Shown one piece after another: positions 29,466 through 54,580 of a stretch of DNA of 64,000 bases. Where the stretch lies: contig NZ_LIOL01000002.1 of the NCBI RefSeq assembly GCF_001418005.1, positions 428,990 through 492,989 on the forward strand, in the 5' to 3' direction. The stretch's first letter is position 1. Every line of letters starts with the position of its first letter. Under the pieces are notes generated by a model. It had not been told where the DNA came from, did not search any database, and worked only from the letters and a program-made list of their open reading frames with translations. This stretch comes from Chelatococcus sambhunathii (GTDB taxonomy: Bacteria > Pseudomonadota > Alphaproteobacteria > Rhizobiales > Beijerinckiaceae). The position numbers and the translations under genes are program-made.

Positions 29466-29480
29466 GAACACACCGGGAAC
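29466..29480. promoter_or_regulatory. LexA (SOS) box of lexA
   Basis: GAAC-ACACCGG-GAAC, the reverse of the alphaproteobacterial LexA box GTTC-N7-GTTC, lies 77 bp before the lexA ATG. A degenerate second site, GTTC-N7-GTTT, follows at 29491-29505. This fits LexA autoregulation. Confidence 0.8.
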
Positions 29481-29556: not shown

Positions 29557-30255
29557 ATGCTGACGCGCAAACAGCACGAACTCCTGCGTTTCATCCACGA
29601 ACGCCTGCGTGAGACCGGCGTGCCGCCGTCCTTCGACGAGATGAAGGAAGCCCTCGATCTTAAGTCGAAATCCGGTATCCATCGCCTCATCGTGGCGCTG
29701 GAGGAGCGCGGCTTCATTCGCCGGCTTCCGAACCGCGCCCGGGCGCTCGAGGTGCTGCGCCTGCCCGACGGCGTCGCCGCAGCCCCGCGCGGGCGCTTCA
29801 ACCCGAGCGTGGTCGAGGGCGGGCTTGGCAAGGTGCGCGCGCCGGCGCCTCAGGCGGTCGAACCCGCTGTCCAGACAGTTGCGATTCCTGTCATGGGCCG
29901 GATTGCTGCCGGCACGCCCATTTCCGCCATCCAGAGCCGCAGCCACACCGTCTCGCTGCCGCCGGACATGCTGGGCAGCGGCGAGCACTTCGCGCTCGAG
30001 GTGCGCGGCGATTCGATGATCGAGGCCGGCATCCTGGATGGCGATACGGTCGTCATCCGCAAGCAGGATACGGCGAATACAGGGGATATCGTCGTCGCCC
30101 TGATCGATGACGAGGAGGCAACGCTGAAGCGCCTGAGGCGCCGCGGCTCCTCCATCGCGCTCGAGGCGGCCAACCCGGCCTACGAGACGCGCGTGCTCGG
30201 CCCCGACCGGGTGCGCATCCAGGGCAAGCTCGTCAATCTGCTGCGTCGCTACTGA
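29557..30255 (+). CDS. lexA: SOS repressor LexA
   Basis: Represses DNA-damage genes and self-cleaves when RecA is activated. It has 232 residues. The N-terminal winged helix-turn-helix spans about 1-70, with the recognition region [19 protein letters not shown]. The cleavage site is the Ala-Gly of RIAAGTPIS, near residue 117. The catalytic Ser is in [13 protein letters not shown], and the catalytic Lys in EATLKRL. The ATG at 29557 gives [10 protein letters not shown], the family start. It overlaps the end of convergent comEC by 23 bp. An SOS box lies upstream. Confidence 0.97.
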
Positions 30256-42676: not shown

Positions 42677-43840
42677 TCACGTCGCTCCGAGACCGAAAGC
42701 GGCGCCCAGATGCTGCAGATCGTTCCACGTCACGAAGAGCATGAGCATGAGCACCAAGGCAAGCCCGATTCTGAAGCCGATTTCCTGCGCCTGCTCGCTG
42801 AGCGGGCGTCCGCGCACGGCCTCGATGGCGTAGAATAGCAGATGGCCACCATCGAGCATCGGCACCGGAACGAGATTTATCAAGCCAATAGAGACAGATA
42901 GGATCGCCGCCAGATTGATGAGGCCGGCAAGCCCGCCCATCGAGGCGACCTCCCCGGAAACCTGTGCGATGCGGATCGGGCCCGAGAGCTGATCGGTCGA
43001 TTCCCGGCCCGTCAGGAGCTTTCCGACATAATCGCCGGTGCGCTCCACGATGTACCAAGTATCCGTTAACCCTATCCGCAGAGAATCGACGATGCCGTAT
43101 TGCTTCACGGTCCAGTCGCCGGGGTCGCGGGAGGCGCGCAGGCCGAGCAGGCCGATGCGCTGCTTGCCGAATGGTGTCGTCATCTCGCGCAGGTCCGGTG
43201 TCGCCGTGAGCATCACCTCGCTGCCGTCCCGTTCGACGGTGACGGCCAGCGCCTCGCCCGGGCGGGCGCTGATGATGCGCTGCATGTCGGCGAAGCTTTC
43301 CACGGGGCGCCCGTCGATGGAAAGCACGAGATCGCCCGGACGGATGCCGGCGCGCTCGGCGGCGCTGCCCGCCTCCACGGCGTCGACCCGCGGCAGGAGA
43401 ATGGCCCGGCCGCCCAAATAGACACTCGCGGTGAAGATGGCGATGGCGAGCAGGAAGTTGGCGATGGGACCGGCGGCCACAATCGCCGCGCGGGCGCCGA
43501 CACCCTTGTGGTAGAAGCTACCGCGCCGTTCGGCCTCGGACATGGTGTCGAGCGCGTCGCGGTCCGGCATGCTGGCGCTGTTGGCATCGCCGGCGAATCT
43601 CACATAGCCGCCGAGCGGGATCGCCGAGATGCGCCAGCGCGTTCCCTGGCGATCCGTCCAGCCGACAAGTTCCCGGCCGAAGCCGATGGAGAAGGCCTGG
43701 ACGGCGACGCCACAGCGGCGGGCGACCCAGAAGTGGCCGAGTTCGTGGAAGAAGACCACGACCGTCAGCACGAACAGGAAGGGAACCACATAGCTCAGGA
43801 GCCCCCACCCCGCGCCGATCACCGTGCCCGCTATGTCCAT
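42677..43840 (-). CDS. rseP: RseP-type site-2 intramembrane metalloprotease
   Basis: Zinc protease that cleaves membrane-anchored regulators inside the inner membrane. It has 387 residues. The zinc motif is VVFFHELGHFWVARRCGV near residue 30. One PDZ-like domain lies around 120-220 (GIRPGDLVLSIDGRPVESF). The second zinc ligand is in NLVPVPMLDGGHLLFY. Four membrane helices are expected. It follows dxr by 33 bp and precedes bamA by 148 bp. Confidence 0.95.
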   Translation of the reverse strand: MDIAGTVIGAGWGLLSYVVPFLFVLTVVVFFHELGHFWVARRCGVAVQAFSIGFGRELVGWTDRQGTRWRISAIPLGGYVRFAGDANSASMPDRDALDTMSEAERRGSFYHKGVGARAAIVAAGPIANFLLAIAIFTASVYLGGRAILLPRVDAVEAGSAAERAGIRPGDLVLSIDGRPVESFADMQRIISARPGEALAVTVERDGSEVMLTATPDLREMTTPFGKQRIGLLGLRASRDPGDWTVKQYGIVDSLRIGLTDTWYIVERTGDYVGKLLTGRESTDQLSGPIRIAQVSGEVASMGGLAGLINLAAILSVSIGLINLVPVPMLDGGHLLFYAIEAVRGRPLSEQAQEIGFRIGLALVLMLMLFVTWNDLQHLGAAFGLGAT

Positions 43841-50816: not shown

Positions 50817-54287
<3,471 letters not shown>

Positions 54288-54425
54288 CGTTCGTTCCGTC
54301 CTCGTCCCTTCGGCCCCGGCGACTCGCTGCTGATCCATCCGATCGCTCGGAAGCGCCGCAGTATCGCCTTGACCGGTCGGCGCCGTCGAGGGTCGGCGTC
54401 CCACCGGCTGTGGACGGTCTTTCGA

Positions 54426-54530
54426 TCAGACGGGAGGCGCGCTGGCAACCGTGGCCCAGACGCCGATCATGGTGACGAAGACGCCGAGCGATGCGATCTC
54501 GACAAGTGAGGTGACAACGGTCTTGAACAT
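54426..54530 (-). CDS. 34-residue single-pass membrane peptide, candidate SOS division inhibitor
   Basis: A short gene, clearly built: ATG at 54530, GGAG six bases upstream (54537-54540 on this strand), TGA at 54426. The peptide begins MFKTVVTSLVEIASLG and ends WATVASAPPV. A basic/short N-terminus, one hydrophobic helix (about residues 13-30, with Phe, Met, Ile, Trp) and a small tail suggest an inner-membrane peptide. Two tandem LexA boxes sit 14-50 bp upstream. In Caulobacter, SidA is a 29-residue, LexA-controlled membrane peptide that blocks division through FtsW/FtsN. Size, topology and regulation match; I cannot show homology. It lies between dnaE and the 54.8-60.9 kb island. Confidence 0.7.
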   Translation of the reverse strand: MFKTVVTSLVEIASLGVFVTMIGVWATVASAPPV

Positions 54531-54544
54531 GTCTCGCTCCTCTT

Positions 54545-54559
54545 GTTCGTCTTATGTTC
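54545..54559. promoter_or_regulatory. LexA box 1 of the small membrane peptide gene
   Basis: Perfect GTTC-GTCTTAT-GTTC, the alphaproteobacterial SOS operator, 14 bp before the ATG at 54530. It overlaps the predicted -10 region (GAACAT on the minus strand, 54554-54559, 17 bp after TTGAAC at 54577-54582). Confidence 0.85.
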
Positions 54560-54565
54560 ACAATT

Positions 54566-54580
54566 ATTCACTTTTTGTTC
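54566..54580. promoter_or_regulatory. LexA box 2 of the small membrane peptide gene
   Basis: ATTC-ACTTTTT-GTTC, one base from the SOS consensus, starting 21 bp (two helical turns) from box 1. Its right half-site is part of the TTGAAC -35 candidate. Tandem operators on one face of the DNA suggest tight repression. Confidence 0.7.

Follow-up and report, generated by a model that had tools for sequence, protein, structure and literature searches.

A SidA-like membrane peptide gene behind predicted LexA boxes upstream of dnaE1 in Chelatococcus sambhunathii: a candidate SOS division inhibitor

Background

SidA of Caulobacter, the closest described system, is presented as a 29-residue inner-membrane protein that is induced upon LexA cleavage and blocks division through FtsW and partly through FtsN, the FtsW variants A246T and F145L being named as suppressors (PMC4211646). 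Caulobacter cells that lose lexA are described as filamenting to an extreme degree owing to the expression of sidA (PMC12700426), and the gene corresponds to CCNA_02004 (PMC10769358). Among the matches listed in the open-access literature, none dealt with SidA homologues outside Caulobacter or with an SOS division inhibitor in Hyphomicrobiales, and the available portions of PMC13384398 and PMC10769358 make no mention of SidA homologues.

In this study we examined a short gene next to dnaE1 in Chelatococcus sambhunathii, for which an original prediction had proposed a SidA-like, LexA-controlled membrane peptide inhibiting division. We describe its locus, assess its conservation across related genomes, and weigh its relationship to SidA against other explanations of its position and control.

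Results

The window, i.e. the whole stretch of 64,000 nucleotides analysed here, contains a 34-codon gene (54426-54530, minus strand; 105 nt including the stop codon, with an ATG start) predicted to encode a SidA-like single-helix membrane peptide. It is preceded by the Shine-Dalgarno sequence GAGGAG (54537-54542, minus strand), which leaves 6 nt between GGAG and the ATG. A perfect LexA-type box of the form GTTC-N7-GTTC (GTTCGTCTTATGTTC in plus-strand letters, 54545-54559) is separated from the start codon by 14 nt, an arrangement that recurs in relatives, and a second box with one mismatch (ATTCACTTTTTGTTC in plus-strand letters, 54566-54580) is found 21 nt beyond the first. The reading frame with its ribosome-binding site and the two boxes at their proposed distances were thus confirmed, and two relatives (L010 and L011) carry the second box with a spacing and a mismatch identical to those of the window. 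The proposed hydrophobic helix was likewise borne out, both by hydropathy (the highest 17-residue Kyte-Doolittle mean is 2.0) and by an AlphaFold2 model (helix from residue 2 to 29, mean pLDDT 95.6). A plausible promoter overlapping the boxes had also been claimed; this found no support in a promoter scan, which, using the E. coli consensus, returned no sigma-70-like site at the locus. The peptide matched no Pfam and no NCBIfam family.

The next gene downstream is dnaE1 (50817-54287, minus strand; PF07733, 347 bits), coding for the replicative DNA polymerase III alpha, whose start was taken to be the ATG at 54287, the frame staying open up to a GTG at 54404. Both genes lie on the minus strand, separated by 138 nt from the stop codon of the peptide. 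The window also harbours lexA, the presumed repressor gene (29557-30255, plus strand), with a match to TIGR00498 of 186 bits (cut-off 111); its ATG was picked by eye, and the frame was translated from 29554 for this comparison. A pattern scan located a perfect LexA-type box upstream of it (29466-29480, minus-strand letters), in agreement with the earlier claim of a lexA carrying its own box. A third perfect GTTC-N7-GTTC box (43772-43786) falls inside a frame named by eye as an RseP-like protease and is most likely due to chance. Elsewhere in the genome, which is rated 100% complete, we found one gene of the FtsW/RodA family (G000:C1:230340-231350, L309), which fitted FtsW best: its translated part reached 318.6 bits with the FtsW model, whose cut-off of 337.5 it did not attain, and 221.9 bits with that of RodA; no separate RodA gene was seen in the genome search. 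Another gene for DNA polymerase III alpha (G000:C10:117672-118436, L140) is perhaps the DnaE2 of an imuA-imuB-dnaE2 cassette.

The box by itself is not rare. Perfect GTTC-N7-GTTC occurs three times in the window against 1.25 expected, a number reached in 12 of 100 shuffles, and 76 times genome-wide against 50 for a reversed control pattern. It is the combination of box and peptide that is rare. We formulated a strict rule (ATG start, Shine-Dalgarno-like word, 24-55 codons, a hydrophobic stretch, and a perfect box 8-75 nt upstream) and a loose one, and applied both to the upstream regions of the 121 dnaE loci, out of 130, in which the dnaE1 start could be placed. The strict rule was passed by 56 of the 121 loci, by none of their 121 reverse complements, and by none of the sequences in 20 rounds of dinucleotide shuffling; the corresponding numbers for the loose rule were 64 real loci, four reverse complements, and a shuffle mean of 0.95. 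Twenty-one of these loci came from a single-sequence peptide search (which at E 1 had hits, many due to chance, in 38 of 100 genomes) and 100 from the position of dnaE alone, and among the latter the strict rule was passed by 38.

Within the window's order, taken to be Hyphomicrobiales, but outside family f1, strict matches were obtained at 31 of 66 loci and in 23 of 46 families, the other 23 sampled families showing no strict hit at dnaE. Other orders yielded strict matches at seven of 34 loci and none at the remaining 27. Finally, 27 further dnaE loci of family f1, mostly from genomes with no clear peptide match earlier, gave seven strict passes; two of the genomes concerned (G056 and G058) were already known to have the peptide.

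The reading frame evolves under purifying selection, with a pN/pS of 0.23 over nine independent pairs outside Caulobacteraceae and of 0.21 over 36 pairs inside that family. The window gene itself differs from L010 by two synonymous and no nonsynonymous changes, and from L011 by 12 synonymous and six nonsynonymous ones. Three sequences with a non-ATG start, no Shine-Dalgarno sequence or a poor box (L073, L130, and L135) were excluded before the profile tests, and L045 was additionally left out of the pN/pS estimates. The frame, the boxes, and the synteny with dnaE are kept in many families, as the original prediction required of relatives. A merely accidental meeting of ORF and box draws some plausibility from the abundance of GTTC-N7-GTTC in the genome, but the strict rule was never passed by its controls and the frame is under selection, and we consequently rejected this explanation, the probability of which we regard as negligible.

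To place the gene beside sidA, a Caulobacterales set was assembled by a CtrA search, which led to family f104, and by collecting the dnaE loci of relatives from the same order. One of its genomes (G605), whose dnaE query matched a Caulobacter record at 100%, codes at dnaE for a peptide of 29 residues that matches the SidA family model NF033228 over its full length with 59.7 bits (cut-off 35). Of the 80 named loci, with titles referring to Caulobacter, Phenylobacterium, Brevundimonas, Caulobacterales or broader groups, 79 had enough upstream DNA, and a peptide of 29-31 residues together with a box was found before dnaE in all 79 under the loose rule; the box was perfect in 66 of them, and 55 passed the strict rule. 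Among loci taken from 30 of 60 Caulobacterales genomes, chosen as the best DnaE matches, 19 passed it. The NF033228 match and the uniformity of the 79 loci therefore indicate that in Caulobacteraceae sidA immediately precedes dnaE and has a LexA-type box in front of it, as does the window gene. Four loci fetched from another family of Caulobacterales, f223 (L151, L163, L165, and L169), displayed neither a fitting peptide nor a perfect box before dnaE, possibly as a result of lineage-specific loss.

The window gene shares with sidA its place immediately upstream of dnaE1 on the same strand, a predicted LexA-type site just upstream of the start codon, and a product consisting of one hydrophobic helix some 30 residues long. 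At the sequence level, the window peptide is missed by NF033228 (div_inhib_SidA, cut-off 35 bits) and is not filed as a member, and the model exceeded its cut-off in none of 100 relatives, producing only chance-like matches below it; among 14 control genomes it did so in one, Caulobacter vibrioides being among the seven that "ring". Under a profile built from 54 order peptides, 59 of the 61 distinct SidAs of Caulobacteraceae outscored the 99th percentile of 6,100 decoys obtained by shuffling, and a comparison of this profile with that of SidA returned a probability of 95%. The reverse comparison was weak, the SidA profile placing 16 of the 54 order peptides above the 99th percentile of the decoys, and so was the score of the window peptide under the SidA profile (3.6 bits against 5.3). 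When the profile was built without the window's own family, all 18 family peptides exceeded the decoy 99th percentile, the window peptide scoring 12.7 bits. An alignment of 33 of 53 peptides plus two SidAs (A2) revealed a conserved D/E before the hydrophobic core and a Phe present in at least 90% of the rows.

Homology with sidA has points against it: the NF033228 misses, the weak reverse profile, the families of the order and the loci of other orders with no strict hit, the negative promoter scan and, from a profile screen described below, 45 genomes with no match and two loci (L252 and L265) with a frame but no box; moreover, hydrophobic helices resemble one another anyway. The locus is nonetheless identical to that of Caulobacteraceae sidA, and the same gene, box, and position recur in many families, the peptide found there in Caulobacteraceae being SidA according to NF033228. 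The proposal of a SidA-like, LexA-controlled membrane peptide is accordingly supported, and on sequence and synteny we consider the window peptide to be very probably a syntenic homologue of SidA and probably its ortholog.

The same locus was identified in rhizobia, and the stretch 1-25000 of the window had its best matches in Sinorhizobium and Shinella records (about 79% over 24-29%). In Sinorhizobium meliloti (CP090106.1, L311), a 28-codon frame with a GGAG and two perfect boxes sharing a half-site occupies the gap that separates dnaE from an ABC-transporter ATPase gene, for which a gene table that is incomplete lists no gene. Sinorhizobium sp. M103 codes for the same peptide, with two perfect boxes, and Shinella sp. 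PSBB067 for a close relative of it, with one; in a record of Methylobacterium bullatum (L310), 800 nt contained neither the peptide nor a box. The peptides of S. meliloti and Shinella scored 28.2 and 29.6 bits under the order profile, above the best of 2,000 shuffled decoys, and 11.3 and 13.5 bits under the SidA profile, where the best of 2,000 decoys reached 11.0; NF033228 matched neither of them. The S. meliloti peptide resembles that of the window in being hydrophobic and encoded before dnaE behind a GGAG and LexA-type boxes, but has a shorter tail and no Trp. Together with the Shinella peptide, it raised our confidence in the homology with sidA. A translated small ORF detected by ribosome profiling in the 5'-UTR of S. 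meliloti dnaE1, sORF25, is described with no function given (PMC10117765), and judging from its place the frame in L311 is likely to be this ORF. The suggestion that the window gene is probably unannotated agrees with the lack of Pfam and NCBIfam matches; the accompanying view that it is too short for most gene finders calls for one caution, a translated ORF before dnaE1 having already been reported in S. meliloti.

Two further features deserve mention. Overlapping boxes sharing a half-site, in steps of 11 nt, precede the peptide at several loci (L311, L313, L042, L262, and L267), which might allow competition or cooperation between two LexA dimers. In addition, three chromosome-sized records carrying dnaE (CP090106.1, NZ_CP104127.1, and NZ_CP069303.1) are filed as plasmids, e.g. 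a 'pSymB' of 3.7 Mb, and are probably mislabelled.

The proximity to dnaE raises another explanation, in which the peptide would be a translated leader or uORF regulating dnaE1 and the LexA boxes would serve dnaE1. The short same-strand distance in the window, with no terminator-like site found by a scan between the two genes, is compatible with it, as is the inclusion of Caulobacter crescentus dnaE among the SOS-regulated genes (PMC3323433); furthermore, the authors of the S. meliloti study suggested that 5'-UTR sORFs, naming sORF25, might be regulatory uORFs (PMC10117765). Bearing on this point, we screened with the profile 70 genomes that lacked an earlier rule match or whose dnaE region had yet to be inspected. 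At E 0.05, matches were obtained in 25 genomes and none in the other 45, and 22 of the 27 matches were inspected. Fifteen of the 22 had dnaE on the same strand, with a perfect box in 12 of the 15; L255 had one-mismatch boxes only, and L252 and L265 a matching frame at dnaE with no box within 130 nt. One match (L263), lying on the opposite strand, is probably a chance frame.

The remaining six of the 22 had no dnaE nearby (G018, G057, G036, G011, G505, and G022); in G018 and G057, about 160 kb separate it from the peptide. Perfect boxes were present near three of these relocated peptides (L258, L267, and L269) and one-mismatch boxes near the others (L254, L256, and L272), some of the profile hits being weak (L267, E 0.0023; L269, E 0.0076; L272, E 0.017). 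None of the six genomes had a perfect box in the 700 bp upstream of dnaE; one-mismatch boxes there were absent from four and numbered two each in G036 and G022, where about 0.46 per region would be expected by chance. Thus, the boxes tend to accompany the peptide. The relocated peptide of G018 had no match in plasmid records. At L272 (G022), the peptide lies behind genes that by eye resemble lolC and lolD, and dnaE is found about 280 kb from there, as though it had moved out of its former neighbourhood.

A leader peptide would be expected to remain coupled to dnaE, and the six relocated peptides, with boxes near them and no perfect box at dnaE, do not show such constant coupling; besides, the distance between peptide and dnaE varies, and it is the sequence of the peptide itself, not its place alone, that is conserved. 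We therefore rejected a role as dnaE leader, which we consider very improbable. The SOS listing of C. crescentus dnaE may instead reflect the site of sidA; the presence of a candidate in many families also suggests that the LexA site attributed to dnaE is that of an overlooked gene.

Discussion

The best explanation of these results, to which we assign a probability of roughly 0.8, is that the window gene is a homologue of sidA, most likely an ortholog, silenced by LexA, induced by DNA damage, and arresting division at FtsW/FtsI/FtsN. The conserved frame, the purifying selection, the box architecture, and the coincidence of the locus with that of Caulobacteraceae sidA are direct observations, while LexA control and division arrest by this peptide are suggested by analogy with established knowledge of LexA and SidA. 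According to this model, LexA bound at both boxes would keep the gene silent; following DNA damage, RecA would trigger the self-cleavage of LexA and the 34-residue peptide would be made, which presumably enters the inner membrane as a single helix. There it would hold the septal FtsW/FtsI/FtsN complex inactive, with FtsW as its putative target, and division would wait for repair. The designation as a division inhibitor proposed initially is backed for SidA by its published role (PMC4211646), and would apply to the window peptide by analogy.

An SOS-induced membrane peptide could also have a different job, such as a TisB-like depolarisation or the control of another membrane enzyme. The single helix, the LexA-type box, and the small size would fit such a function equally well, yet the gene sits where sidA does, and SidA is reported to inhibit division through FtsW (PMC4211646), and the conserved D/E and Phe positions suggest a specific partner. 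We consider a different job unlikely.

That this peptide gene lies exactly where Caulobacter has its sidA suggests that the checkpoint is old and widespread in alphaproteobacteria. More tentatively, SidA could be an ancient alphaproteobacterial SOS checkpoint missed by gene catalogues, acting in this lineage maybe on the only SEDS-type cell-wall polymerase of the cell, a proposal we regard as possible but doubtful. If the proposal were true, DNA damage would switch off the one SEDS polymerase available to a cell whose growth may be polar and independent of RodA. Since a candidate is recognisable in many families, including that of the laboratory organism Sinorhizobium meliloti, the DNA-damage checkpoint of rhizobia and their relatives becomes directly testable.

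Compared with known systems, the window gene is closest to sidA, with which it shares the position directly upstream of dnaE, the LexA-type box, and a product formed by a short hydrophobic helix, approximately 30 residues in length. A motif (D/E)-x2-ALAS-x3-F-x2-M occurs in SidA as well as in some of the order peptides, whereas the window peptide has ASLGVF in place of ALAS-x3-F. It is also longer than SidA (34 versus 29 residues), has a longer C-terminal tail, carries its Trp four residues after the Met and not just before it, and unlike the SidA of G605 lies below detection by NF033228. The genes for DidA of Caulobacter, YneA of Bacillus, SosA of Staphylococcus, and SulA of E. coli are not known to be related to the window gene and lie at other places. 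These four proteins are, like SidA, damage-induced division inhibitors (PMC4211646 for DidA and SulA); DidA and YneA are described as small membrane proteins, DidA being induced by DriD and not by LexA, and the target of SulA is given as FtsZ (PMC4211646).
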